From: a virus
Length of the DNA: 45,568 nucleotides
Reading direction: 5' to 3' (one strand)
Virus record (IMG/VR): IMGVR_UViG_3300032307_000462
Coordinates: 1 to 45,568 of that record
Under the pieces are notes generated by a model. That model was not told where the DNA came from and ran no database searches. It saw nothing but the letters and a program-made list of their open reading frames with translations. A program made the translations under genes and the position numbers. Position 1 is the first letter of the stretch. Every line of letters starts with the position of its first letter. Below are positions 1 through 45,568 of this stretch, piece by piece.

Positions 1-1071
1 CTCCTAACCCGTCTGCCTTCCCGACCAAGCTCGATAGCACCCTCCCGTTCGGCCGCCTTACCGGCGAGCAGATGGCTCAATTCGGCCTGTCCGACGCCAT
101 GCTCGATCAGTTCGTCGAACACTCCACGATCGGCCACGTCATGTCCGGCGTCGAGTTCGTCAAGAGCGCCGACGACGCAGCCCACGTCGTGGCCGGTATG
201 CGTAAGCGAACCCAGGAACAGATCATCCTCCTTATCACCGACAAGAACGGTCGCCCGATCCAGATCGCCGGCCACCAGATCGGCGGGCCTACCTCGACCG
301 GCTTCAACCCTGGTATTCTGATCGGCACCGCGGCCAGCACTCCTGGCGCAGCTAAGGTCTGGTTCATCCATAACCACCCGTCCGGCAAGTCCAGCTTGTC
401 GCCGGCTGACATTAGCTCTGGTGGAAACATCGAGCGACTGCTCAAGGCTGCCAACCTGGACTACATGGGAACCATGGCTGTCGCCGGCACCCGGTATGCG
501 CAGATGACCCCCAGCGGCAGGATCGAGAGCAACATGGCGATCAAAGCTGCCCCCCGTAAGTTCAAGGTCCCGGTCACGGAGCGCATGTTCTCGTTCCGCG
601 TCAGCCATGACAAGGTATCCCATGGCGATCCGTCGATCGCCATGACCGAAGCCGAACGTATCTTTGGCAAGGATCAGCCTGGCCTCATCCTCCTGGACAA
701 TAGCAACCGCATGGTTGCCACGATCCCCCTGGCTGCCGACGTGCTCCAGGCCATGAAGGCTAAGATCCCCGGAACAGATCAGACCGGCTTCAACCGTTTC
801 GTGTCCGGCATCGACCGGTCTAACCCCGTCAACCTCATGATCTACACGGCTAGCCTGGACCAGGACGTCGCCCGTAAGGTCATTCAGAACATGAGTGGCG
901 TCGCCCAGGCCACCAAGCTCAACGTCCTGGACGCGTTCGGCGCCGGCAGCGTGAGCCGTCAGTCTGACATTCGCCCCTACGGCTCCGACTTCAATGAGTC
1001 TGGATCTGAATACACCCCGGACGGCGGCCAGGCCAGCGAGCCTCAGACCCTCCGCGACGTCGTAGACCAAG
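1..1071 (+). repeat. Terminal homologous copy A of the JAB-repeat segment
   Basis: Bases 1-1071 align in frame with 44495-45568, with one codon of length difference and scattered substitutions, many of them synonymous. The first 52 bases match 44495-44546 exactly and the last 27 match the window's right end exactly. The window therefore starts and ends in the same gene segment. The copies are either two population variants of one locus placed at the two contig ends, or a real tandem duplication. Confidence 0.9.
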
Positions 1072-4000
1072 CGGCTAAAAAAAAAAATGAATTAGAGGTC
1101 GGTGAGGGCGAGCCGGACGCGGATAGCATGGCTGAAGCCATCAAGGCTGAGCCTATCCCGTCGGCTGCCGACATGGCCAAGCTCACCGGCAGACTAGTCC
1201 CGAACCACGACGACGGGCTCCTGGCCTCACAGGGCTTTATCACCAAGCGCGCCAGCCAGGACATGGCCAGGATCATGGAGCGCATCAACAGGCGCTTCCC
1301 GGACGGCTACCCGATCAATGGCTGGGATGATAATGGCAACTATAACCGGGATAAGAAGAAGATCGCCAACCTCCGGCTGCGCTACGAGAGCGACGCGGAC
1401 CCGATCGGGAATTACGAGGCCCAGGACTATGTCTTTATCGACGCCGTTTTTGAGGACGGAACGACGCACATGATCGCCAGCCTGGATCTGATGCGCGGTT
1501 ACGCCGGCACCCCGGAGGTTACCAAGGTCGGCATGAGCCACGTTAACACGGATCTGCAAAAGCTTGGCCTGGGCAGCATCCTGTATGTCGAAGGCGGCGA
1601 GCGCTTGCGACGCATGGGGCAGCGCTATATCACCGGATCAGTCATTAACCCGGCTGCGGTAGCTACGCGCGTCAAAGCCTTCCCGGCCGGCAGCACCGAG
1701 CTCCTGGCTGTCCCCGGATCGTCCAGCATGAGCCAGAAAGAAATGGCCGACGCTGCGCTAAAGGTCATCAAGGGCGGCCAGGCTGCCTACACCCAGACCA
1801 CCCTGGACCCGGACGTCGCCCTGGAGCCCAGCCAGCCATACAACCAGGCCGGTAGCTATGACATTGTTTTCTATGACGCAGCCATCAAGGGGTTTAACTC
1901 CGAGCGAAACGGCAACCCGGACAAGGACCGGTCCGGGCGAGCCATCGTCGGCAAGGATGGCGTAACCTTCACCGGATATAAGCACCTTAAGGACGCAAGC
2001 CTCACCCTGGATGAATGGAACGATCTCATGGACGAGCTCAAGTCCGACGGCGAAGCTCGCATCAGCATGCCGGACGGGGACATTGTGATCACATCCGTAA
2101 GCAAGCGATCGGACCGCGTCCGGGAAGATGGCGCCGAAGCCGACCAGGACGACCAGCTCACCGAGCCGGCCATGCCTTACGACGACGGCGAGAACACCCG
2201 CATCCCTGGTAGCGAGCGCGACGAGCGCCTCAAGAGACTTGAGGAAAAGGCCCGCGAGGTTGAGCAGCGCGGTTACATGCACGTCGGCCACGGCTGGTAT
2301 TCCGGATCTAAGGACGAGAAGCCGGCAGCCTGGAAGAAGAAGGCCAAGCTGTGGACCCTGTCGAGCGACGGCCGGATCGTTTTCAGCAAGACCGTAGACA
2401 AGCTTGAGGTAGCTTACATTAACAGCAAAAAGCGCGAGCTTGCTGATGTTGAGTCCAAGGCGCGAGCCGCGGAACCGAGCCCCGAACGCAACAACTACGA
2501 ACGCCGGGCGTATCAGCTTACTAAGAAGATAGACGAGCTTGAGGGTGAGATGAAAAGCAACAGCTCCCCCATTACGCACATGAGGCAGACGTCCGGTTTT
2601 TCCGAAACCGAGTATCCCGGCAGAAACCCGCAAGGCCGCGTCGAGATCACCGACGACGGCGTCCTGGTCAGCATCATCAGTTTCCGTGGCAAGATGGAGT
2701 CCGTGGCCGATGAACGGATGGTCATGCAGGATCTGCGCGAGGCGGTCGCGAAGGATCTTGGCGTATCGCCGGACAAGGTCCGTGTCATTGACATGGACGG
2801 CGGCACGGTCGAGACGGACACCCCGGAGGACGGCAGCGCCAGGGAGCCGGCAGCCGCGTATGACGACGGCGAGAACCAGGCTATTCCTGGCGGTGGCCGC
2901 CAGGCCTGGCTGAAGAAACAGGCTGAGCTGCGCTCCAAGAACGAGCTGCCCGGCGCTAAGCGGATCCAATGGTGGACCGACGTCGGCCATAAGCACGGCA
3001 AGAAGAACCGCGAGAAGGTCTGGCTCTGGGCTTACGATAAGCAGGGCAAGCTCCAGGTGATCAACGCCGAGGAGCTTAGGTCCAAGCTGCAGGATGAGTA
3101 TGACATGATCGGCGCCAATGTTACTCACCTTGATTGGGAGGAGTCTTTCGCCCCAGGCCTCCTGGCCGGCGCCGCGCATGGCCGGATCGACGCGACCGAA
3201 GATGTGGTTCGCGTCTCCCTGGCCGGCCGGATCAACGACCCGACGTTCCGGGAACAGGTCAAGCAGGAGCTGGCCGAATACATCGGCGTCGAGGTCGATC
3301 GCGTCAAGGGCTACGACTTTACCGGCGACGGCATGCCGGAGCTGTTCAACCGAACCCAAGCCGGTAGCGACACGGAGATCAAGCAGCTAGCCCAGGATCT
3401 TAAGGGCATGGACGTCGAACAAGCCAAGGCCTACTTCAAGAAAAACCCGGATAAGGTGATACTCTTGTCGCAGCCCGGTCTGCCTCCCCACCTGGAGAAG
3501 ATCATCAAGGCCATGCGCGAGATCGGCTATAACGACGCCAAGGCATACCTGGAAGCTCACCCGCTTGGCAAGCTACTGCTCGCTAACGGTCGCATTGTGT
3601 TAGTCCGCGACGCGTCCGAGATCCCCGGTCTAAGCCCGCTTGAGGCTGCCGCTGGAGGGTTCAATGGCTTGGTGTTTCCAACTAATCGCGAAGCCACCTA
3701 TTTCGTCGGCGACGGGATCTCCCAGGCTGAGCTCGACGCGCTTATCAAGCATGAGGTCGGCGTCCACATGGGCATCGGCAAGGACACCGACCTGGTTAAT
3801 GACCTGTATGCTGAGCTTTACAGGCTGATCGAAAACGGTGCCAGCGACGACATAGACCGGATGATGGCCGGAGATGCCGTGATGGATGCGTTCAGCGTAG
3901 TGGCCGGGCAATACGGACGCGGGATCTTAAAGAAGATAAATGAAGGGGGTCTATCCCCCAAGGAGCGCTACACCGATGCCCGCATAACGAGCATACTTAA

Positions 4001-7000
4001 GGAGAAAGGCTTACCCCAGGATGAGATCGATAACTTCCTGCGCATGTTCCACGAGGAAACCCTTGGCTATCTGATGAACGTCATGGCCAGAAGGGACGCC
4101 GCAGCTAACGCCCCAAAGGAGGGCTTGTTTGCGATCATCATCCGGTGGATCAAGGCCACGATCATTCGCATGGCCTACGCCGGCAGCGAAGGCGGGGAGC
4201 GCGCCCGCGCCGGGAAGGCTATGCGTGGCATCGGCTACGCCAGCTTGATGGCCGACAGCCTGGGAATGAAGAAACTGTCCCAGCTCCTGGAGATCCGGCC
4301 GGGCGACGTCCGGGCGATCGCCCAGGGCTATGTCCGGGCATACGCTTCCGGCAAGGAGGTCGGCATGCCGGATACCAGGAAGGATACGGTTGAGGGTGAC
4401 ACCCAGGAGGCAGCCAAGGACGCCCAAGAAGCGCGCGTCCAGGGTCGCGCCAGCGATCCGGTTACCGACGCTGCCACGTTTAGTAACACCCTGCTGTTCT
4501 CCTGGCGCAAGCCAGGTCAGCCAGCGCCTACCAACGATAAGCTGTCCGGAACCAAGGAGGCTGCTGCCAGGTTTGAGGATGCGCCCAAGGGCCCCGTCGC
4601 CGGCGCCAATGAAAAAGAAGAAAACCTAAGCTACCCGCCGTCGTCTGCCCAGGAGGAGGTTGGTCATGCCAAGTGGGTAGAGCGCAAGCATCCGGAACAA
4701 AGCGAGTTTTCTGTCATTACCCACAAGAGTGGAGTTATCTCGCTTAGCCAGGCGCTTAATCCTACCGGCCCTACTAGAGACTCATCTCTGCTGGTTGCCG
4801 ATGAAAACGGAAACCCGATCGAGTTTCCGCGCGTGTCGTCTATCGCTGCGATCAGCGGCCAGCTGGGAGATCTAGCTGCTCAGCTCGACATCCCGGTGCA
4901 CATCCCGCAAGGCCGACAGGGGACCGGCAAGGATGGTAAGTTTAATGAGATCAAGGGTAAGGATGAGGACGTTACGGACGACGGCCAGATGCTGTCTGGC
5001 TTTGGTCTTGAACACGCGTCCTGGAAGCATGGATGGGAAATGGATGCTCTCGCTGGTAAGGGTGGCTGGGAGGTCGGTAAGCATGTTGAGGCTATTCAGA
5101 AAATAATGGAAGATGCTAGCGACATTGGCGTCATGTATAACGCAGACGGGTCCGTAGGTAAGGTCATGGTTTTCTCACAAAAAACCCAGATGCGCGTAGT
5201 CTTGCAGCGCGTAGGCGGTGACAGCCCGTTCTTCTATGTGGTGACGGCCATGAAGCTTGGTAACGCCGTCAGAAAAGGTAAGCCTGTAAACGCTGAAAAA
5301 CTTAACGTCCCGATCGACAGAGAGACGTTCATGAGAGGCTTGGTTAGCTTCAGCCCGGAGGGAGCTCCGGCTCCGCGAGCGTTTTACTCTGAAGCTAAAA
5401 ACGAAAACCAGACTAACAGCGAAAACCAGGCTAACGAACCTGGCGCCGACTACGGCCAGACCGAGCAGACCGGCGAGCAGCAAGCTGCTGCTGAAGCCGA
5501 GACGCTGGAGAAGCTGCGCGAGGTCCAAGGCAACGGACCCGCTGGCCCCAAGCTGTTCAACGCGATCCCGCCCACCCCGCCGCCTCCTGCGCCGACCACG
5601 CCCACCAGCCCGGCGCCGGCTCCGCTTAACCCGCCGGCGACGAACGACGACATGGCGCGCCGGGTAGGCGACGTCCTGCGCGGCCGATACTTTGACGGCA
5701 TCAGCACCAAGGCGCACCAGAACGCTGAGCGCACCGGCAGCGCAGCTGTCCGGGCTATTGCCGACATTATCCACACCCGTCCTGGGACGGAGAGCCCGTC
5801 CTCTGAGCGCGATCTGCCCAAGGCGATCATGAGCGCGCGCATCAAGTATCAGAACAAGTTTAACCAGATCATGCGCCCGCTGCGCGATCAGCTCAGTCGC
5901 ATGACCAGCGAGCAGCGCGAGCAGTTCTACCGCGAGCTCGTCGATCAGATCACCGGCCGGACCAACATCCAGCCTGGCGTCGCCGGCCACGCGGCAACGC
6001 AGCTGATCGATCTGCTCAAGGAGTTGCACGACTACCGGACCGCAGCCGGCGAGAACCTGGGCCAGGTCCAGCAATACTTCCCGGCGGTCTACAACTCCGA
6101 GCTGATCACGGCCAACCGGACCGCCTTCATCGCGGACGCGACCAGGGCCTACGAGATCGAGCTGTCCCAGGACCCGACCCTTACCCCCCAGGAGATCCAG
6201 GCCAAGGCCGCCGCAGCCGCGGCTGCCCTGTATCGGACCCATACCAGGGGCATGGGCGACGCCGAATGGGCGAGCATCTTCACCAGCGGCCGGGATAACG
6301 CCACGGAGAACAGCTCCAAGGAGCGCGTGTTCGGCCGCCAGGCGCAGGGCATCATGGCCAAGTGGCAGACGCCGGACCCGTTCTATGTGATCAGCCGTTA
6401 CATCGGCAGCTCCGTCAAGCGAGCTGAGCTCGTCCGGCGCTTCGGCCCGGAGGGTGAGAAGTGGGAAGCCATGGCCAACGCCATGGAAACCGACGGCGTC
6501 CCGATCGAGACGATCAACGAGATGGGGCAGCTGGTGAAGCTGGCCGCCGGCCTGGGCGTCACGCCCCTGGATAACTCCGAGCGCATGTTCATGGATACGG
6601 TCAACCTATACACCGCCGCCGCGGCCATGGGTAAGAGCGCCATGAACAACCTGTTTGAGCCTTCGGCCATGGGCATCCGCGGATCTACCGTCGGCAACCC
6701 GTTCCGGACGGTCAGCGCCTACGCCGAAACCTGGGCGCGGTTCGTCCGTAACCTGGTGCAGATGCTGCCGGTCCTGGGCGAGCACGTCGGCCCGACGTTC
6801 TGGCAGGAATACGGCGAGCACATCGGATCTATCCATAACTCCCTGGACGACGCCTGGATGAGCATGCACGCCATGGAGCACGGCATGGAGGAGTCCAACC
6901 CGGCCATGCGCTGGATCACGAACCGGGTCTACCAGGCCAACCTCATGGAGTCTACGGAGAACGCCAAGCTCCAGGCCTCCCATGCCCTGGGTCACGCCTA

Positions 7001-7949
7001 CATCCTGGACCACGCCAGCATGCTGGACGGCAGCCACTACATCTCGCGGCTGCTTAAGTTCGACACGCGCAGCACGGCCGAGGAAGCGCTGCTTGAGCTT
7101 GGCATCCCCAAGTCCAAGCAAGACGCCTTCGCAGCCTGGTGCGCCACGCTTAAGCAGACCAAGGACCGGGGCGCTCGCATGGCCATGCTTACGGACGGAT
7201 CTGAAATGGCCCGCCTATACGAGGAAGCCCAGATCCGGTTCAGCCATCAGTCAGCTGTCCGTGCTAACCGGGCTCACAAGCCGGTGTTCCAGGATGCTGT
7301 CCTGGGTCGCCTGGCCTTGCAGCTCATGAGCTTCAGCTACTCCTACTTCTCCGAGGTAACCGATCGCATGTATCGCATGGCAAGGCGCGCGATCACGACG
7401 AACAACATGCCGGCGATCCAGCGCATCAACATGATGCTCCCCCTCATGCTGTCTCCTCTGACCGTCGTGGCCATGGGCGCCTTGTTTGAAAGCAAGGACT
7501 ACCTGTTCCCGACGGAGTCGTCCGAGAAGCGCAAGAAAGACCATTGGATCTACAAGCTGTTCAACGCCTCCTCGTTCGCCGGCATGTTCGGGCCCAAGCT
7601 CGAAATGGCTACCAAGTATATCGCGCGCGATCAGCCGCCTGGCGGCATCGCCGGTCAGACCGCGGTCGGCGTCGGCCGTGTTGGCAAGAAGGCTATCGAG
7701 CTCGCCATGGACGATACCAAGACGCCGGCCCAGAAGGAGGCTGCCTTGAAACAGGCTGCCGCCAGGGCTGCCGTCGCTCCGATCAAGGGCGCTGCCGTGA
7801 TCGCAGGATCCGCGCTGCACCCGGCCGCCGGCGCCCTGGCTGTTGCAGCCACTAACGATACCGGCTGGTCTAATGCGCTGCAGGACGTCGAAACCCCCAA
7901 AAAGGGGACGGATCCCAAGCCGGAAGGATTGCCAAAATACAGGAGGTAA
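3..7949 (+). CDS. Giant polyvalent virion protein, 3' part (RadC/JAB, GNAT-like, zincin-like, helical C-terminus)
   Basis: This frame is open from the left edge, with no stop before the first ATG at 72, so the gene continues upstream. Its 5' part is at 41560-45568. Domains in order, by position: a RadC/JAB-like domain with HNHPSG at 369-386 followed by SxxD; its partner segment (610-960); an 11-A run (1077-1087); a GNAT-like segment whose QKLGLGSILY (1557-1586) resembles an acetyl-CoA loop; two copies of an unknown module beginning EPAxxYDDGEN (2163 and 2847); a zincin-like HEVGVH at 3750-3767; a segment starting FGLEHASWKHG at 5001 that recalls phage BECR-type nucleases; a Pro-rich linker (5560-5640); and a long helical region to 7500 with a hydrophobic stretch near 7430-7495. 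This architecture fits the large polyvalent proteins that phages eject with their DNA, which is family knowledge. Ejection and protection of incoming DNA are inferred from the internal virion protein genes just upstream. JAB is the surest domain; GNAT, zincin and BECR are motif-level calls. Confidence 0.85.
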   Translation, partial: PNPSAFPTKLDSTLPFGRLTGEQMAQFGLSDAMLDQFVEHSTIGHVMSGVEFVKSADDAAHVVAGMRKRTQEQIILLITDKNGRPIQIAGHQIGGPTSTGFNPGILIGTAASTPGAAKVWFIHNHPSGKSSLSPADISSGGNIERLLKAANLDYMGTMAVAGTRYAQMTPSGRIESNMAIKAAPRKFKVPVTERMFSFRVSHDKVSHGDPSIAMTEAERIFGKDQPGLILLDNSNRMVATIPLAADVLQAMKAKIPGTDQTGFNRFVSGIDRSNPVNLMIYTASLDQDVARKVIQNMSGVAQATKLNVLDAFGAGSVSRQSDIRPYGSDFNESGSEYTPDGGQASEPQTLRDVVDQAAKKKNELEVGEGEPDADSMAEAIKAEPIPSAADMAKLTGRLVPNHDDGLLASQGFITKRASQDMARIMERINRRFPDGYPINGWDDNGNYNRDKKKIANLRLRYESDADPIGNYEAQDYVFIDAVFEDGTTHMIASLDLMRGYAGTPEVTKVGMSHVNTDLQKLGLGSILYVEGGERLRRMGQRYITGSVINPAAVATRVKAFPAGSTELLAVPGSSSMSQKEMADAALKVIKGGQAAYTQTTLDPDVALEPSQPYNQAGSYDIVFYDAAIKGFNSERNGNPDKDRSGRAIVGKDGVTFTGYKHLKDASLTLDEWNDLMDELKSDGEARISMPDGDIVITSVSKRSDRVREDGAEADQDDQLTEPAMPYDDGENTRIPGSERDERLKRLEEKAREVEQRGYMHVGHGWYSGSKDEKPAAWKKKAKLWTLSSDGRIVFSKTVDKLEVAYINSKKRELADVESKARAAEPSPERNNYERRAYQLTKKIDELEGEMKSNSSPITHMRQTSGFSETEYPGRNPQGRVEITDDGVLVSIISFRGKMESVADERMVMQDLREAVAKDLGVSPDKVRVIDMDGGTVETDTPEDGSAREPAAAYDDGENQAIPGGGRQAWLKKQAELRSKNELPGAKRIQWWTDVGHKHGKKNREKVWLWAYDKQGKLQVINAEELRSKLQDEYDMIGANVTHLDWEESFAPGLLAGAAHGRIDATEDVVRVSLAGRINDPTFREQVKQELAEYIGVEVDRVKGYDFTGDGMPELFNRTQAGSDTEIKQLAQDLKGMDVEQAKAYFKKNPDKVILLSQPGLPPHLEKIIKAMREIGYNDAKAYLEAHPLGKLLLANGRIVLVRDASEIPGLSPLEAAAGGFNGLVFPTNREATYFVGDGISQAELDALIKHEVGVHMGIGKDTDLVNDLYAELYRLIENGASDDIDRMMAGDAVMDAFSVVAGQYGRGILKKINEGGLSPKERYTDARITSILKEKGLPQDEIDNFLRMFHEETLGYLMNVMARRDAAANAPKEGLFAIIIRWIKATIIRMAYAGSEGGERARAGKAMRGIGYASLMADSLGMKKLSQLLEIRPGDVRAIAQGYVRAYASGKEVGMPDTRKDTVEGDTQEAAKDAQEARVQGRASDPVTDAATFSNTLLFSWRKPGQPAPTNDKLSGTKEAAARFEDAPKGPVAGANEKEENLSYPPSSAQEEVGHAKWVERKHPEQSEFSVITHKSGVISLSQALNPTGPTRDSSLLVADENGNPIEFPRVSSIAAISGQLGDLAAQLDIPVHIPQGRQGTGKDGKFNEIKGKDEDVTDDGQMLSGFGLEHASWKHGWEMDALAGKGGWEVGKHVEAIQKIMEDASDIGVMYNADGSVGKVMVFSQKTQMRVVLQRVGGDSPFFYVVTAMKLGNAVRKGKPVNAEKLNVPIDRETFMRGLVSFSPEGAPAPRAFYSEAKNENQTNSENQANEPGADYGQTEQTGEQQAAAEAETLEKLREVQGNGPAGPKLFNAIPPTPPPPAPTTPTSPAPAPLNPPATNDDMARRVGDVLRGRYFDGISTKAHQNAERTGSAAVRAIADIIHTRPGTESPSSERDLPKAIMSARIKYQNKFNQIMRPLRDQLSRMTSEQREQFYRELVDQITGRTNIQPGVAGHAATQLIDLLKELHDYRTAAGENLGQVQQYFPAVYNSELITANRTAFIADATRAYEIELSQDPTLTPQEIQAKAAAAAAALYRTHTRGMGDAEWASIFTSGRDNATENSSKERVFGRQAQGIMAKWQTPDPFYVISRYIGSSVKRAELVRRFGPEGEKWEAMANAMETDGVPIETINEMGQLVKLAAGLGVTPLDNSERMFMDTVNLYTAAAAMGKSAMNNLFEPSAMGIRGSTVGNPFRTVSAYAETWARFVRNLVQMLPVLGEHVGPTFWQEYGEHIGSIHNSLDDAWMSMHAMEHGMEESNPAMRWITNRVYQANLMESTENAKLQASHALGHAYILDHASMLDGSHYISRLLKFDTRSTAEEALLELGIPKSKQDAFAAWCATLKQTKDRGARMAMLTDGSEMARLYEEAQIRFSHQSAVRANRAHKPVFQDAVLGRLALQLMSFSYSYFSEVTDRMYRMARRAITTNNMPAIQRINMMLPLMLSPLTVVAMGALFESKDYLFPTESSEKRKKDHWIYKLFNASSFAGMFGPKLEMATKYIARDQPPGGIAGQTAVGVGRVGKKAIELAMDDTKTPAQKEAALKQAAARAAVAPIKGAAVIAGSALHPAAGALAVAATNDTGWSNALQDVETPKKGTDPKPEGLPKYRR
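1077..1087 (+). other. A11 homopolymer in the giant gene, possible slippage site
   Basis: A run of 11 A residues in a GC-rich coding region encodes Lys-Lys-Lys-Asn just after the RDVVDQ end of the JAB repeat. One extra A gives an immediate TGA; one missing A gives ATG AAT TAG. Polymerase slippage is known on A runs of this length, and either slip would end the protein right after the JAB repeats. Whether slippage happens here is inference. Confidence 0.5.
2163..3350 (+). repeat. Diverged tandem duplication inside the giant gene
   Basis: Two consecutive modules start with EPAMPYDDGEN (2163) and EPAAAYDDGEN (2847), both followed by an IPG and a basic helix. Both end in a similar segment, GRVEITDDGVLVSI in the first and GRIDATEDVVRVSL in the second, then a helix and a VDxVKG/VDRVKV-type strand. 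The similarity is clear in protein and weak in DNA, so the duplication is old. I do not recognise the module. Confidence 0.6.
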
Positions 7950-33209: not shown

Positions 33210-36095
33210 ATGCCTTACATCGTCGTTGAAAACTTCAAGGGAGGCCTTGATACGCGACGGCATAAGCTGTCCTCAGCTCCCGGAACGCTCACCAGCCTGG
33301 TCAACGCGCACGTTACGCGCGGGGGCGAGATCGAGAAGCGCAAGGCCTTTCATCTGGCCTACACGCTGCCGGCCGGGACATTCGGCCTGGAGACAGGATC
33401 CGGCCAGGTCTACGTCTTTGGATCTGCTGACCTGGCTGCGCAGATGCCGGCCGGCGTGACCTACCAGCGCCTGGTGTCGCCGGATGGCGCCGCCAACAGC
33501 ATGACCAAGGCTATCTACTCTACGGTCTACGGCGGTAAGCCGTTCGTCATAGCTCAGTTTTCCAACGGCCAGAAATACCCGTTCTGGGACGGCGCCTTCA
33601 TCAAGGACTTCAGCTCTGGCATCGTCACGGCAGCCATGATGAACAACGCCGGCATCGCGGCGCACCTGGCTTCCGTGTTCTCCTACACTAACGACGAGAA
33701 CCAGCCCTATTCGATCCAGGTGATCAATGGGAATAAGCTGCGAATAATCGGCCCTCCTGGTGTCGCGTTTGAGGGCAGCATGATCAAGAATTCAAACCCG
33801 GCCGTCGATGGGATCGTGGTTCAGAACAAGACAGATCCGACCCCGGATAAGCCCGCAAAGGGATCGTTCGTCGTCTTGAACGGATCGGCGTCCAATCGCG
33901 CGACAATGAGCTATGCGCTGCGCCAGCATAACTACCCTGGGTTGCCTAACGCCATCGGCGTATGGGTGTCTTACCCCGATGGATCTGCCAAGGAGCTGCT
34001 TGGCTTCCCGGCGCCGCTACCGCCTCCCGTAATCCTCACATGCTCGACGGTTGACGGCAGCCTTACCGTGACGACGGCCGACACGACCGGCATCACGGTC
34101 GGAATGACCGTGACCGGTAACGGCATACCAGATCTCGCCAAGGTGGCTGCGCTCTGGGACGATGGAACCAACAAGGGCTTCACCCTTACGGCTGGGCATG
34201 AGGCTACCGAGGATCAGACGGACGTTCCCCTAACCCTGCGACAGCCCGTGATCGCCACGATCCAGGGGTTCGGCGCCTGGAGCATGGCCGGTGGAATTGG
34301 CGGCGACCCAGGGCAGCGCTACGCGGCTGCCTTCTCGACCTACGTCAACGCAAACACGGCGAACACCGGATACTCTGCCAGCTATTGGCATGGCGGTGGC
34401 GGCTGGAACAAGTGGGATCCAGGTTCTTGGACGTTATACGCCCCGCAAGAGGACTACGAAAACGCCAACGGCAGATCTGTCTGGATTGAGTTTGCAGCTC
34501 AGCCTGGCTACCCAGGGTCAACCGGCGGCAACCCTGGTGACAATTTCTTCAGCTACGCTGCCGACACGATCATGCCGAGCCCTTACTACAGAGAGGGTGA
34601 GGATAAATCCCTTCCCACCGGAAGGTGGATCATGAGAACGCTTGGATATACTAATGGCGTCCTGGCCGGTGGTTCGTTCAACGGCATCAGCAGCGTCACA
34701 GTTGACGGTGTGGAGGTCCTGGGAGCTCGCGTTCCTTGGGCAACCTCAAACAGCTCCCTGGCCCTTAACACGGTTAACCAGATCAACACATACCTATCGA
34801 CCACGGAATACACGGCTTCCGTGTCGAGCAACACGACGGTTACCATCGCGGCGATGCAAGGGACGGGATCTTCCGGTAATGGCCGGAGCATCTCAGCTAC
34901 GCCGGTCGGATCCGTCACTTTGTCCGCGTTCTCGATGTTTGGCGGCGGGACTGACCTAATCCAGGCCGCGCCGCAGATCATGGAGTTTGAGATCAATGAC
35001 CCCTTCACGGTAGGCGACAAGTATTCCATCATCATCGTAGACCCGGCTTCCCCCAACCAGCCGTATCAGTTCGGGTTCAACCGCGTCGGCGGCGTCCAGC
35101 CGTTGTTCTCTGCCACATACAAGGGCAAGGAATACCTGGCGTCCGGATCTACCCTGTATTTCTCTAAGCTCAACGACGCGACCAAGTGGGGCGTCTACGA
35201 GCTGGGATCCGGCTTCATCGACATGTCTAATAACTTCGGCGGCCGTGAGGATCTCACCGGCTTCGGAGCCTACCAGGGACAGGTCGCGGTGTTCACCCGG
35301 CGTAATTGCCAGCTCTGGTTCTTTGATCCTAACCCGGCGCAGAACGCGCAGCGCCAGATCCTGGACAACACCGGCTGCATCGCGCCTGGGTCTGTCGTAT
35401 CCGTCGGCGCCATAGATCTGTTCTACCTGGCCGACAACGGCATCCGGTCGCTGCGCGCGCGTGAGAACACGGACGCAGCCTACGCCAATGACATTGGATC
35501 GCCGGTAGATCAGCTGGTGATCGAGCACATGCGGACCATGACCGAGTCTGACAAGTATGACGCCAAGGCCGTGATCGAGCCGGAGGACGGCCGGTATTGG
35601 CTGGCCCTGGGCTCCAGGCTGTTCGTCCTGTCCAGCTTTGCCGGCTCCGGGATCAATGCCTGGTCCGAATACGAGCCTGGCTTTACGGTCGAGGAGTTCG
35701 CGTCGATGGAGAATAAGGTCTACGCGCGCAGCCACGACGACAAGATCTACATCTACGGCGGTCACGACGGCACCCTTTACGACGCATCGCCGGTATCCGT
35801 CGAGATCCCCTACCTGGACGCAAACAAGCCGGCCACGTTTAAGTCGGTCAACGGCCTGGACGTCACCTGTGAGGGCGGCTGGAAGTTCTTTATCGGCTTC
35901 GACTACACCAACCCCACGGCTAAGGACGAGATCGCCTCCATGGATCAGCCTAGCTTCGCCCTGGGCCGTATCCCGGTCGCCGGCTACGGGACCCACGTCG
36001 GCGTCAAGGCTGTCACGACGGGCTCCGGCTACGCCAAGCTTGCCAACGCGATCGTCCATTACGACGACCAGCACTCCAAGCATGAAGCTGGTTAA
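33210..36095 (+). CDS. Tail nozzle protein, tail tubular protein B-like (961 aa)
   Basis: The N-terminus, VENFKGGLDTRRHKLSSAPGTLTSLVNAHVTRGGEIEKRKAF, is typical of the podoviral tail nozzle/tubular B family. The rest is beta-rich with a long insertion of Gly/Asn/Ser-rich loops and a C-terminal propeller-like region containing YLASGSTLYFSKLNDATKWG and CQLWFFDPNP. Hexamers form the tail tube end through which DNA exits and fibres attach. The gene starts three bases after the adaptor stop and overlaps the next gene by 14 bases. Confidence 0.82.
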   Translation: MPYIVVENFKGGLDTRRHKLSSAPGTLTSLVNAHVTRGGEIEKRKAFHLAYTLPAGTFGLETGSGQVYVFGSADLAAQMPAGVTYQRLVSPDGAANSMTKAIYSTVYGGKPFVIAQFSNGQKYPFWDGAFIKDFSSGIVTAAMMNNAGIAAHLASVFSYTNDENQPYSIQVINGNKLRIIGPPGVAFEGSMIKNSNPAVDGIVVQNKTDPTPDKPAKGSFVVLNGSASNRATMSYALRQHNYPGLPNAIGVWVSYPDGSAKELLGFPAPLPPPVILTCSTVDGSLTVTTADTTGITVGMTVTGNGIPDLAKVAALWDDGTNKGFTLTAGHEATEDQTDVPLTLRQPVIATIQGFGAWSMAGGIGGDPGQRYAAAFSTYVNANTANTGYSASYWHGGGGWNKWDPGSWTLYAPQEDYENANGRSVWIEFAAQPGYPGSTGGNPGDNFFSYAADTIMPSPYYREGEDKSLPTGRWIMRTLGYTNGVLAGGSFNGISSVTVDGVEVLGARVPWATSNSSLALNTVNQINTYLSTTEYTASVSSNTTVTIAAMQGTGSSGNGRSISATPVGSVTLSAFSMFGGGTDLIQAAPQIMEFEINDPFTVGDKYSIIIVDPASPNQPYQFGFNRVGGVQPLFSATYKGKEYLASGSTLYFSKLNDATKWGVYELGSGFIDMSNNFGGREDLTGFGAYQGQVAVFTRRNCQLWFFDPNPAQNAQRQILDNTGCIAPGSVVSVGAIDLFYLADNGIRSLRARENTDAAYANDIGSPVDQLVIEHMRTMTESDKYDAKAVIEPEDGRYWLALGSRLFVLSSFAGSGINAWSEYEPGFTVEEFASMENKVYARSHDDKIYIYGGHDGTLYDASPVSVEIPYLDANKPATFKSVNGLDVTCEGGWKFFIGFDYTNPTAKDEIASMDQPSFALGRIPVAGYGTHVGVKAVTTGSGYAKLANAIVHYDDQHSKHEAG

Positions 36096-36564
36096 CCTTA
36101 ACGAGCCGGATCTGCTCTACGTCTGCGACAACATGCGCGACATGGATCGTCGCGAGATCTACGCGACCAGGTGGACGGAGAACCCGGCGCACTTGGTTGA
36201 CTCCATCATGATCGTCCCGGAGCTTGGATGGGTTGCCAAGACAGACGACGACGTCCCGGTCGCAGCGATCGGCGTCGTCCCGATGTGGGACGGCGTTTGG
36301 TCGGTCTGGATGTTTGCTACCGACAAATGGCCGGATGTTTCGTTGTCCGTTACCAAGTTTATCAAGCGCGCGCTGCCACAAGCCATGAGCGACGCCGGCA
36401 TACATCGCGCTCAATGTTACTCCTCAGCTGAGCATAGCGTAGCTCACGCCTGGCTGCGCATGCTTGGCGCCGACAAAGAGTCGGAGATCAAGGCGTATGG
36501 AAAAAACGGAGAGGACTTCGTTCTTTTCAGCTGGATAAAACAACCCTCTAAAACACACTCCTAA
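36082..36564 (+). CDS. GNAT-like internal virion protein, DUF2833-like (160 aa)
   Basis: The true start is ATG 36082 inside the nozzle end; longer frames are overlap only. The order of strands and helices (IYATRWTEN, WVAKTDDDVPVAAIGVVP, VWMFATDKW, SVTKFIKRALPQAM, HRAQCYSSAEHSVAHAWLRMLGA, YGKNGEDFVLFSW) is a GNAT acetyltransferase fold of the kind found in T7 gp13-like phage proteins (DUF2833). It leads the internal virion protein block. Whether it has acetyltransferase activity or is purely structural is unknown. Confidence 0.75.
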   Translation: MKLVNLNEPDLLYVCDNMRDMDRREIYATRWTENPAHLVDSIMIVPELGWVAKTDDDVPVAAIGVVPMWDGVWSVWMFATDKWPDVSLSVTKFIKRALPQAMSDAGIHRAQCYSSAEHSVAHAWLRMLGADKESEIKAYGKNGEDFVLFSWIKQPSKTHS

Positions 36565-41559: not shown

Positions 41560-44500
41560 ATGGCTCTAAACATCAATCCGAATTCGGGAAAAGGATCGAC
41601 GAACCAGCGCGCTCTGCCTCCTGTTCCTCCCGTAGCGCCGACTCCGGAGTTATCTACTCCAGGTGGCGAGCCTGTTGCCGGCCAGATCGGAGCTCTCGCG
41701 CAGATCGTTGCTGCAGCGCAGCGAGGCACAGCAGCCTCTAATCAATTCGCGATCCCCACGTTTGGTTCGCCTGGTGTTTCTCAAGCTGCGCTGCCGAGCC
41801 CGATCGCGCCGCAGCAGCCTGGCATCCCTGCCGGTGTTCCTTCTTCTCTCGCCGGACTGTTCGGCGACGCCGGCGCTCAAGCTGCGCAGCCAACCGGTGG
41901 TCTTTCCGATTACGGACTTGCACCGGCTCCGGAGCTCCAGGGCGCCATGGGGCCTGGAGCTGAAACCGGTGCTATGGCCATGGAGCCCGAAGCTCCTATG
42001 CCCGGCATGCCTGTCCAGCCGGCTGGCCAGCAGGGCTCTGCTCCGATCACCGGAGCCACTACCATTTTCGATCTCGTCTCCCGCGGTCTTGGCGTAAACC
42101 AGGCGCCCCAGGCGCCCCAGGCGCCCCAGGCTCCGGCCATGGCTCAGCCTGGCATGCCGGCGCCGCGCGTCCCGCAGCTGCCGCCGATGCCTCAGCTGCC
42201 GACGCCCACCGGTCCGCAGATCTTGCCTCAGTATGCCGGCGCCGACTCTCGCGCTAACTTTGCACCTGGCGGCACCCCTCAGCTCATGCCGGAGGCCCAG
42301 GCCCGCGTTGACCTGGCCAATGCCCCTACGTTTGACTCCTGGGCAAACCAGCTCCAGCAGATGGGGATCGCCAGCAACCCGGCTGCCGGCACCTTTGGCA
42401 CCGGCGCTCGCCAGCCCCAGCTGCCGCCCATGCCCCAGCTCCCGACCCCGTCGGGTATCCCTTCCGGTCTTGCAGCACCCCAGGCGGCGCCCCAGGCTTC
42501 CCCTTATGTCAACCCGCAAGCCCCCCAGGGTGCTGTTCAAGCACCCGCCGGACCTCAAGCTCCGCGCGGCGGTCAAGGCGCAGCAGCTCCGGCTCAGCAA
42601 GTCCAAGCCCAAGCCCAGCCTTCTGTCGCTCCTGCGCCCGCTGCTGGACCGGCTCCTGCGCCGGCGGTAGACCCCGTCGTCGCCGATCTGCAGCGCCAGA
42701 TCGCAGAGCTGCGCGCGCGTATCCCGGCCGCCCCGGCCCCGGCCGCCCCCGCGCCTCAGCAGCCCCCGGCAGCCCAGGCTGATCCCGGCCGCCCGTATGA
42801 TCCGTCTCGCGTCGAACCCCAGGAGGTTCCGGAGTCGGCCCCCGTCGAGCAGCCCCAGGAGGTTCCCGAAGAAGCCCCGGAGCTTGAGCCCGCGTTCACC
42901 GGCTCTCCTCTTACGGAAGCCAAGCCGGCCGATCCGATCGTCTCTAACGGTGGTATTTCCATCGGCGGCAAGAGCTTTAAGAACGCCAAGGCGATCCCGG
43001 CCAGCATGCTGCAGAAGATCGGCGTCAGCCAGGCCATCCTTTCTCAGTTCGTCGAACACGCCCAGGTCGGCGTCCTTAAGTGGTTCAAGCCGACGATCGA
43101 CAACGAAGCCGACGCGGCTGCGCTGTCCTATGAGTTCCTGCGTAACCAGGCACAGGAGAGCATGCTGGTCATTCTTGCCGACAAGAACGGCAAGCCAATC
43201 AGCGTCCTGCGGCACACCCTAGGAGGCATGGGTCAAACCTCATTCCACGCCAACATCATGGCTGGAGTGGCCGCCGGAACCCCTGGCTGCCGTAAGGTAT
43301 ATGTCGTCCATAACCACCCGTCCGGGACCATGAAGTTTTCGGAGGCCGATATGCTGGCTGCGGTCAACATCCAGAAGCTACTTGAAGGAGTCGGCGTCGA
43401 GTTTTCCGGCAGCCTTGTCGTTGGCGACGCCCAGAACGATCCTGGCACTCGCGGCGAAGGCGCTTACGGTCCTCGTTATATCTTCCACCCTGGCAATAAG
43501 GATACCGTAAAATTCCTCGAAACCTACGCCAAGGACGAGGCATTGTCTAAGCCGATCACCATGGCCGAGGACACCCCTGGCGGCGATCTGACCGCCGGCT
43601 ACCCGGTCGCGCTCACCGAACGCGTGTTTAAGATCCGCGGTAACGCCCTGGCGCCCGCTATTGCCAACGGGACTGATGCGGTCCGTTCTATTGTTCCGCT
43701 TCTGGCCCGTAAGCCTGGCATCGCTTTCCTTGATAAGGGAAACCGGGTTATGGCCGTTCTTCCGCTTAGCCTTCAAGAGATGGCCGCACTTGCTACGGTT
43801 ACCAACAAGCGCGGAACCATGGGCATCGCTCAGAGCAACACGCAGCGACTTCCGAGGACCACGAGCTCGACGATCGACGTCGAGTCCACCGCCCAGGACA
43901 ACCCTCCTCTTGCCAGGATCCTAACCGTCCTGGAACGTGCTAATGCTGACGGTATCATTATCAGCGTAGGCGATGCCAGCAACGACAGCCAGGAAGCAGT
44001 CAATGCGGTGATCAACGTCAAGACGATGGCTGGAAGATCTAAGATCGGCGTCTTGGACACGATTAATAATGAGCGCAACTTTGGTCCTTATTTCGGTCCC
44101 AAAGCTGACACGCTTGGCGGCACCAACGCTACTCCTAAGCTTCCGACCGGTGAGCGCCTGGGCTTCCGCGAGGGCGACGAGGAGTATGATCCGGCCCCGA
44201 TCGAGAACGAAGATCTGGCCCAGGACTACCCGGAAGTCATGGCTAACCGCAAGGCGACGCAGCGCGCCGACGGCGGCCAGGATGGCGGCGCCGGCATCGA
44301 AGGCATCGTCCGCAACGGCCTGGAAGAAGGTAACGTCAGCGAGACTAACCCGGAAGATCCGAACGCCGGCGCAGAGTTCGCCCGCCAGGAACGCGAAGCT
44401 GGCGCCAGGGTCAACCAGGACAGCGGCCTGGAGAACGCCACGCCGGCCGAGCCTATCATTAAGAAAACCCGCAAGCCTCGCGCTAAGCCGGCTGCTCCTA

Positions 44501-45568
44501 ACCCGTCTGCCTTCCCGACCAAGCTCGATAGCACCCTCCCGTTCGGTCGCCTTACCGGTGATCAGATGGCTCAGTTCGGTCTGTCCGACGCCATGCTCGA
44601 TCAGTTCGTCGAGCACTCCACGACCGGCCACGTCATGTCCGGCGTCGAGTTCGTCAAGAGCGCCGAGGACGCAGCCCACGTCGTGGCTGGTCTGCGCAAG
44701 CGCCCCCAGGAACAGGTGATCCTGCTGATCACGGACAAGAACGGCCGTCCAATCCAGATCGCCGAGCACATGCTCTCCCAGCCAGCGTCTTGCGGCTTCA
44801 ACCCTGGTATCCTTATCGGCACCGCGGCCAGCACCCCTGGCGCAGCCAAGATCTGGTTCATCCATAACCACCCGTCCGGTAAGCCTACCCTGTCGCCGGC
44901 TGACATTAGCGCCGGGGGCAACATCCAGAGGCTGACCGAAGCTGCCAACCTTAAGTATGAAGGGACGATGGCTATCGCCGGAACCCGGTTCGCCCAGATG
45001 ACCCCGTCCGGACGGATCGAAGGCAACATGGCGATCAAGGCTGCGCCCCGTAAGTTCAAGGTTCCGATCACCGAACGCATGTTTGCGTTCCGCGTCAGCC
45101 AGGACGCCAAGCAGATCAGCGACCCGGCCATCGCCATGGCCGAAGCCGAGCGTATCTTTGGCCAAACTCAGCCTGGCCTTATGCTCCTGGATAACAGCAA
45201 CCGCCTGGTTGCCACAATCCCCCTGGCTGCCGACGTGCTCCAGGCCATGAAGGCCAAGATCCCAGGCACGGACCAGACCGGCTTCAACCGGTATGTGGCC
45301 GGCATCGACCGATCTAACCCGGTCAACGCCATGATCTATACGGCCGACGTAGATGCGGGCGTTGCCCGCAAGATCATCCAGAACATCAGCGGTATGGCTG
45401 GTGCCACCAAGATCAACGTCCTGGACGCGTTCGGCGTCGGCGGTATCAGCCGTCAATCCGACATTCGCACCTACGGCGCCGACTTCAATGAGTCGGCTGC
45501 CGAATACGATCCGGAAGGCGGCCAGCCCCAGGGCGAACCCAAGACCCTCCGCGACGTCGTAGACCAAG
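41560..45568 (+). CDS. Giant polyvalent virion protein, 5' part (two RadC/JAB-like repeats)
   Basis: ATG 41560 follows TAAGACACCAAC and opens a frame that runs to the window edge without a stop. Residues 1-460 are a Pro/Ala/Gln-rich low-complexity arm. Then come two RadC/JAB-like repeats: HNHPSG with first His at residue 584 and SEAD after it, and HNHPSG at residue 1102 with SPAD. The His-x-His and Ser-x-x-Asp pattern is that of JAMM/RadC folds. Each JAB unit is preceded by a GLSDAMLDQFVEH-like helix and followed by a partner segment, so the repeat unit is about 340 residues. The gene continues at window positions 1-7949. The protein is probably carried in the virion; JAB activity, if any, would be a zinc-dependent hydrolase of unknown substrate. 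Confidence 0.88.
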   Translation, partial: MALNINPNSGKGSTNQRALPPVPPVAPTPELSTPGGEPVAGQIGALAQIVAAAQRGTAASNQFAIPTFGSPGVSQAALPSPIAPQQPGIPAGVPSSLAGLFGDAGAQAAQPTGGLSDYGLAPAPELQGAMGPGAETGAMAMEPEAPMPGMPVQPAGQQGSAPITGATTIFDLVSRGLGVNQAPQAPQAPQAPAMAQPGMPAPRVPQLPPMPQLPTPTGPQILPQYAGADSRANFAPGGTPQLMPEAQARVDLANAPTFDSWANQLQQMGIASNPAAGTFGTGARQPQLPPMPQLPTPSGIPSGLAAPQAAPQASPYVNPQAPQGAVQAPAGPQAPRGGQGAAAPAQQVQAQAQPSVAPAPAAGPAPAPAVDPVVADLQRQIAELRARIPAAPAPAAPAPQQPPAAQADPGRPYDPSRVEPQEVPESAPVEQPQEVPEEAPELEPAFTGSPLTEAKPADPIVSNGGISIGGKSFKNAKAIPASMLQKIGVSQAILSQFVEHAQVGVLKWFKPTIDNEADAAALSYEFLRNQAQESMLVILADKNGKPISVLRHTLGGMGQTSFHANIMAGVAAGTPGCRKVYVVHNHPSGTMKFSEADMLAAVNIQKLLEGVGVEFSGSLVVGDAQNDPGTRGEGAYGPRYIFHPGNKDTVKFLETYAKDEALSKPITMAEDTPGGDLTAGYPVALTERVFKIRGNALAPAIANGTDAVRSIVPLLARKPGIAFLDKGNRVMAVLPLSLQEMAALATVTNKRGTMGIAQSNTQRLPRTTSSTIDVESTAQDNPPLARILTVLERANADGIIISVGDASNDSQEAVNAVINVKTMAGRSKIGVLDTINNERNFGPYFGPKADTLGGTNATPKLPTGERLGFREGDEEYDPAPIENEDLAQDYPEVMANRKATQRADGGQDGGAGIEGIVRNGLEEGNVSETNPEDPNAGAEFARQEREAGARVNQDSGLENATPAEPIIKKTRKPRAKPAAPNPSAFPTKLDSTLPFGRLTGDQMAQFGLSDAMLDQFVEHSTTGHVMSGVEFVKSAEDAAHVVAGLRKRPQEQVILLITDKNGRPIQIAEHMLSQPASCGFNPGILIGTAASTPGAAKIWFIHNHPSGKPTLSPADISAGGNIQRLTEAANLKYEGTMAIAGTRFAQMTPSGRIEGNMAIKAAPRKFKVPITERMFAFRVSQDAKQISDPAIAMAEAERIFGQTQPGLMLLDNSNRLVATIPLAADVLQAMKAKIPGTDQTGFNRYVAGIDRSNPVNAMIYTADVDAGVARKIIQNISGMAGATKINVLDAFGVGGISRQSDIRTYGADFNESAAEYDPEGGQPQGEPKTLRDVVDQ
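42100..42132 (+). repeat. Short tandem repeat coding for Gln-Ala-Pro
   Basis: The 9-base unit CAGGCGCCC is repeated three times from 42100 and followed by a diverged fourth copy, encoding NQAPQAPQAPQAPQAP in the low-complexity arm of the giant protein. Such repeats change length easily by slippage. Confidence 0.8.
44495..45568 (+). repeat. Terminal homologous copy B of the JAB-repeat segment
   Basis: This segment is the partner of copy A at 1-1071. It contains the second JAB repeat of the 5' part and ends exactly at the sequence that precedes the A11 run in copy A. Joining 45568 to 1072 keeps the reading frame, and so does joining 45568 to 1. Confidence 0.9.

Follow-up and report, generated by a model that had tools for sequence, protein, structure and literature searches.

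A conserved poly-A run in a giant phage gene is a probable slippage site for the production of two proteins

Results

A conserved A-run separates two potential products of one gene

The giant phage gene analyzed here most likely makes two proteins on purpose, because a run of 10 or 11 A residues is kept in all nine contigs that reach the relevant joint and because a slip on this run switches between a short and a full-length product. We put the probability at roughly two in three that the run is a selected recoding site, with programmed transcriptional slippage as the most likely mechanism and with a JAB-only and a full-length protein as the predicted products. From sequence comparisons we infer that slippage occurs and does so mainly at transcription, that both proteins are functional, and that they are carried in or incorporated into the virion. 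The initial annotation had proposed that slippage at the run gives two virion proteins from one gene, and our comparisons lend this proposal partial support.

The window, by which we mean the whole stretch of DNA analyzed, is a virus contig of 45,568 nt and 61.5% G+C with genes for terminase, portal, major capsid, and internal virion proteins. The giant ORF runs off the right end of the window and resumes at its left end (Table 1). When the ends are joined it covers approximately 12 kb and encodes 3,985 amino acids with no internal stop. The Pfam RadC-like JAB family (PF04002) was matched by two stretches of the 5' part (6e-24) and by one stretch of the 3' part (9.2e-11), giving the giant protein a multidomain architecture of the polyvalent type. 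The JAB-only product would carry the low-complexity N-terminus together with the RadC-like JAB domains and their conserved HNHPS...S..D residues; the full-length product would add the C-terminal part.

Table 1. Positions of the giant gene and of the features at its A-run in the window.
Feature	Position	Strand	Remarks
Giant gene, 5' part	41560..45568	+	ATG start; proline/alanine/glutamine-rich N-terminus; JAB copies 1 and 2
JAB copy 2	44495..45568	+	84% identical to positions 1-1071 of the window, with the same border sequences
Giant gene, 3' part	1..7949	+	JAB copy 3, A-run, C-terminal part; stop at 7947-7949
Last RadC-like JAB domain 5' of the A-run	165..497	+	JAMM-type residues HNHPS...S..D conserved among relatives
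A11 slippery run, codons AAA AAA AAA AA(T)	1077..1087	+	In frame; A10 or A11 in nine of nine contigs reaching the joint
TGA stop	1088..1090	+	Read at run lengths of 9 or 12 or upon a -1 ribosomal shift
Rare Leu codon TTA supplying the off-frame TAG	1092..1094	+	CTA in L001, L002, and L026
TAG stop	1093..1095	+	Read at run lengths of 10 or 13 or upon a +1 shift
Conserved C-terminal region	5655..7946	+	In the long product only; weakly similar to KPP25/phiR18 structural proteins

The presence of JAB copies 2 and 3 at the two ends of the window affects the calculated size of the JAB-only product. JAB occurs just once in this slot in every relative that covers it, which makes the seeming third copy a probable assembly bubble; the likeliest explanation is that the two copies are alleles of one slot from two strains, placed at the contig ends, and not an additional tandem domain. 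If the ends of the window are joined as a circle, the JAB-only protein has 1,699 amino acids, with the run at codons 1696-1699. If the head and tail copies are alternatives for one slot, it has approximately 1,341 (979 + 358 + 4 residues), and this smaller size looks likelier. The previous estimate of about 1,345 residues consequently stands if the third copy is an assembly artefact and fails if the ends are truly contiguous. The ambiguity in JAB copy number is without effect on the A-run itself. Contig breaks were also observed at or near the JAB slot or the A-run in L004 (position 12630) and at the ends of L005 and L045, which suggests local strain variation or assembly trouble. Elsewhere in the window, an ORF at 35575-36564 overlaps the end of the gene at 33210-36095 and was considered as a second frameshift; this was rejected in favor of an ordinary small gene because its C-terminal part matches PHROG 308 (internal virion protein).

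The A11 run is in frame, bounded by off-frame stops, and far beyond chance

The run is located directly 3' of the last RadC-like JAB segment, as the initial annotation had placed it, and the frame across it reads AAA AAA AAA AAT GAA TTA GAG. Writing out the alternative run lengths confirmed the claim that a slip in either direction leads to an immediate stop: 12 A's give AAKKKK followed by TGA, and 10 A's give AAKKKMN (ATG AAT) followed by TAG. Lengths of 9 and 13 A's also stop, with 8, 11, and 14 A's remaining open. The TGA and TAG occupy the same places in L001, L002, and L026. Such an arrangement, in which both off-frames stop within three codons, is found at just 0.3% of the codon positions of the giant gene.

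An A11 run is far beyond chance in this DNA. It is the sole homopolymer of at least 8 nt in the window, the runner-up being a T7, and only about 0.003 such runs are expected from the dinucleotide content, in keeping with the earlier remark that the run is striking for this G+C content. Of the Lys codons, AAA accounts for 26 of 202 (13%) in the giant gene and, across a set of other ORFs, for 56 of 481. The remaining two KKK tripeptides of the window's giant gene are AAGAAGAAG, and the same holds for other KKK tripeptides in the giant genes. An A11 run was reached in 4 of 2,000 synonymous shuffles of the gene.

The off-frame stops make use of rare codons, in counts that are not independent since the sequences are related. 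In all four sequences of the window's type (the window, L001, L002, and L026), the off-frame TAG is formed by a TTA or CTA Leu codon and the following G; these two codons make up 7-13% of Leu codons in these genes, including 19 of 265 in the giant gene of the window. In L003, L010, and L011, the off-frame TAG is formed by the Val codon GTA and the following G, with GTA representing 4-12% of Val codons.

The run is retained across divergent relatives

IMG/VR contigs were the sole source of relatives of the joint between the JAB array and the C-terminal part. With the window counted, nine contigs extend to this joint, and the eight relatives come from eight different metagenomes. The number of independent lineages is small: eight of the nine are distinct, L011 and L012 being near-copies of each other, and L004 ends 1 nt past its run. 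The JAB domain adjoining the run shows about 45-80% protein identity among the contigs, and values as low as 44-49% for L026 against the rest. Compared across these related phages, the slippage site proposed by the initial annotation was not lost; the run was kept with its off-frame stops in nine of nine contigs, and it is the longest homopolymer in each of the nine loci. Its length is A11 in the window, L001, L002, L010, and L026, and A10 in L003, L004, L011, and L012, the latter from four different metagenomes.

These data bear on whether the run could be a neutral A-tract without function, in which case the full-length protein would be the sole real product and the A10 lengths would be sequencing or assembly errors. 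Lysine-rich linkers are common, homopolymers are error-prone, and five contigs have an A11 run that leaves the gene open. The conservation of the run across strong divergence is nevertheless difficult to reconcile with the low use of AAA and the outcome of the synonymous shuffles, and the off-frame stops are conserved through rare codons. A shared assembly error is conceivable in principle for the A10 contigs, but this length was found in four separate metagenomes, never in the other five contigs, and in a single clade that also gained a hairpin (see below). A neutral run is already disfavored by these observations, and we consider it highly improbable.

No run was found in L022, which contains the C-terminal part and no JAB array. 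No cultured relative with the JAB joint was present in the phage collection; the capsid protein is common to the window, Microcystis phage Mae-Yong1326-1, and Rhizobium phage RHph_N65, and of the two phages only Mae-Yong1326-1 also matches the C-terminal part. In bacterial genomes the C-terminal part was not found and the JAB matches were distant, with no run of at least 8 nt at a comparable joint in the two bacterial loci inspected (L047 and L057). Pattern scans for further joints yielded no new contigs. A7 runs approximately 7 kb upstream in L001, L002, L004, and L005 were rejected as a second conserved slippery site, being at differing places in unrelated contexts.

Other long A-runs were observed in more distant phage contigs. 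Three RadC-bearing contigs of 42-46% G+C contain an A10 run (L116 at 3154, L125 at 4714, and L130 at 3559) in frame, 40-75 codons into ORFs of 2,255-2,751 amino acids and retained despite differing flanking residues (LKKKGGGQ versus SKKKVSTD); it is possible that these constitute a second slippery or phase-variable site in polyvalent genes. A9 runs lie within ORFs of 3,089-4,293 amino acids in other distant contigs from the JAB search (L085 at 13639, L089 at 5328, and L115 at 7084).

Two run lengths encode opposite products

There are two frame ARRANGEMENTS among the joints, with the A11 group encoding the full-length protein and the A10 clade encoding the JAB protein. In the A11 group, a slip in either direction meets a stop a few codons on. 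For L003 and L011, it is the JAB ORF that is encoded, and it ends a few codons past the run (QKKKTRR-stop and QKKKTKR-stop, respectively). A downstream ORF of 1,733 or 1,927 amino acids, homologous to the C-terminal part of the window's protein, occupies a different frame and is open across the run. The two ORFs would be fused by the addition of one A, which gives A11, or by a -1 shift on A AAA AAG. We wrote out run lengths of 8 to 14 for the eight loci with downstream sequence, and at all of them only lengths of 2 modulo 3 read through, the remaining lengths stopping within 1-9 codons. Because the same lengths give the long form at every locus, the feature that is conserved is the possibility of two products and not a lysine linker or a single frame.

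In a tree of the JAB domain, the A10 state forms one clade (99/98) nested beside L010, its A11 sister. This position suggests that A11, with the long form encoded, is probably the ancestral state.

A hairpin abuts the run in the A10 clade

Members of the A10 clade have a perfect stem immediately 5' of the run, with a spacer of 0 nt. The hairpin is GGGGCTC-TCT-GAGCCCC in L003 (z -2.2 versus shuffles), GGGGCTC-TCC-GAGCCCC in L004 (z -3.3), and GGTCTC-TCCG-GAGACC in L011 and L012 (z -3.0). The 20-nt segment with the hairpin ranks within the best 0.2% of the gene in L003 and the best 3.7% in L011. The L011 stem is maintained by a one-base register shift and not by simple compensatory pairs, so that classical covariation was rejected for this hairpin. 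L010 has a weak stem only, and no significant or notable hairpin was found at the run in the window, L001, L002, or L026. A conserved 5' hairpin in the A11 group was likewise rejected: a -7.8 kcal stem in the window and L001 is no better than shuffles, and it is absent from L002 and L026.

The existence of two genomic run lengths raises the question of phase variation, in which the length of the tract would change at DNA replication, leaving some individual genomes with the short form encoded and others with the long form. A coding homopolymer of 10-11 nt with off-frame stops is the usual form of such contingency switches, and some contigs (L004, L017, and the window) break in or near the region. 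The run length, however, tracks phylogeny, with A10 confined to one supported clade of clearly diverged members, and the near-copies L011 and L012 have the same length although they come from different metagenomes. Nor does a phase switch predict a hairpin restricted to the A10 clade. Phase variation is therefore an improbable explanation for the run.

Features of the run point to the RNA polymerase

The same two products could be made from a uniform mRNA if ribosomes underwent programmed -1 frameshifting, on A AAA AAG in the A10 clade or on A AAA AAA in the A11 group. E. coli dnaX and IS elements employ -1 ribosomal frameshifting on A AAA AAG. The A10 clade resembles them in having this canonical bacterial heptamer in the ORF-fusing phase (in L003, L011, and L012, cAA AAA AAA AAg, with a -1 shift into gac gag gcg). 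In the A11 group, a -1 shift on A AAA AAA gives AAA TGA, and tandem AAA codons are slippery. Unlike E. coli dnaX and the IS elements, the phage joints revealed no conserved Shine-Dalgarno-like element in the 40 nt upstream of the run (AGGGG in L003 and L004 and AAGGG in L010 only) and no downstream stem-loop stimulator, the fold of the 70 nt downstream of the run being no better than shuffles at seven loci (z -1.06 to +1.33). The A11 genomes lack the G needed for the efficient AAG heptamer, and the run is kept at 10-11 nt although 7 nt suffice for ribosomal frameshifting. The hairpin of the A10 clade lies upstream and abuts the run, a position for which attenuation of -1 shifting has been reported (PMC6321510). 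On this evidence we regard ribosomal frameshifting as unlikely, while ranking it above phase variation and a neutral run.

The length of the run, the position of the hairpin, and the lack of ribosomal stimulators lead us to infer that the polymerase is favored over the ribosome. Productive slippage by bacterial RNA polymerase occurs on runs of 9 A or T, and the RNA:DNA hybrid is 9-10 bp (PMC5009743), a length that the 10-11 nt of the phage runs match. On A7 to A11, insertions are at least twice as frequent as deletions (PMC6260861), and insertion is the direction of slip needed by the A10 clade. E. coli RNA polymerase slips less on A than on T runs, which counts against slippage here. No phage RNA polymerase was found among the PHROG and Pfam matches of the ORFs tested.

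Under the mechanism we propose, RNA polymerase would add or drop A residues on the 10-11 nt tract to yield a mixed mRNA population. Messages with A8, A11, or A14 would be translated into the full-length giant protein with JAB array and C-terminal part, and messages of all other lengths would meet a stop at once and give the JAB-only protein. In the window and its four A11 relatives, the genome encodes the long form and slippage would supply the short one. In the A10 clade, the genome encodes the short form and slippage, possibly aided by the abutting RNA hairpin, would supply the long one. In a simple illustrative model, the long product predominates for A11 and the short one for A10; since the ratio is reversed in the model, we speculate that a hairpin that raises slippage would partly restore the product ratio in the A10 clade.

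The C-terminal part points to a possible virion location

The C-terminal part shows 21% similarity to structural proteins of KPP25 and phiR18 and a weak match to a giant protein of the Microcystis phage, and its end is conserved in about ten contigs. The giant gene lies 3' of the structural module, as it does in the Microcystis phage. Because of this gene position and the weak similarity to structural proteins, a virion or injected location of the products is plausible. An AlphaFold model of the C-terminal part was all-helical with a mean pLDDT of 53, too poor for a fold search. A role in processing nucleic acids or nucleotides has been proposed for the RadC domains of polyvalent proteins (PMC5512222).

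Discussion

Recoding of structural genes in dsDNA phages is known mainly as ribosomal frameshifting, as in lambda G/GT and the tail-assembly chaperones. In the literature searched, RNA polymerase slippage in phages was just passingly suggested (for Campylobacter phage CPt10 and N4-like Vibrio phages), and no conserved case in a virion gene was found. The giant protein resembles the polyvalent proteins with RadC domains described by Iyer et al. (2017), being multidomain and containing RadC-like JAB domains (PMC5512222); the words 'frameshift' and 'slippage' are absent from the main text of that paper.

The window has a close counterpart in Thermus thermophilus dnaX, where transcriptional slippage on a 9-nt A/T run results in tau and gamma at about 1:1 (PMC5009743). 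Both have the long product in a single ORF, a homopolymer, and nearby stops in both other frames, such that slipped mRNAs give, or in the phage would give, the short form. They differ in that dnaX encodes a cellular DNA polymerase subunit for which slippage on 9 nt has been demonstrated, whereas the phage run lies in a giant protein gene, is 10-11 nt long, and has slippage as a prediction. Both polarities of slippage are represented in a homologous pair of type VI secretion genes. Slippage on the A11 run of Citrobacter rodentium tssM1 produces the long form at 20-25%, both forms being needed, and slippage on the poly-A run of Yersinia pseudotuberculosis tssM3 produces the short form, with frequencies of 15-25% for the pair (PMC4256274). 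The same two polarities are found within this phage family. The tssM genes encode a membrane protein and are two isolated cases, whereas the phages have a lineage-wide tract with one clade-wide inversion.

A precedent for the hairpin is provided by an IS630-type element of Roseiflexus, in which a stem-loop directly 5' of the tract (GCGGGCgcaaGCCCGC) stimulates RNA polymerase slippage (PMC5009743). The A10 clade likewise has a perfect inverted repeat directly 5' of its slippery tract; the Roseiflexus element slips on T5C5 by deletion, whereas the A10 clade would do so by insertion, and the window is without such a hairpin. The joint of the window thus matches dnaX and tssM3, and that of the A10 clade matches tssM1 combined with a Roseiflexus-type hairpin. 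Slippage at these joints is probably an established mechanism placed in a setting new to it, and one clade adds an inversion and a hairpin of its own.

Taking the observations together, it is about an even proposition that this dsDNA phage lineage sets the ratio of a JAB-only to a full-length giant virion or injected protein by programmed RNA polymerase slippage, aided by the hairpin in the A10 clade. In that clade the polarity would have flipped, from slippage giving the short form to slippage giving the long form, with the two-product outcome kept and the hairpin gained.

Tract, phase, and stops are all retained throughout the lineage. If the proposed slippage is real, gene callers that show L003 and L011 as two genes and the window as one are both half right, and the true unit would be two nested proteins in a set ratio. 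The A11 joints without a hairpin and the A10 joints with one would then offer a natural comparison for how a stem-loop tunes slippage.
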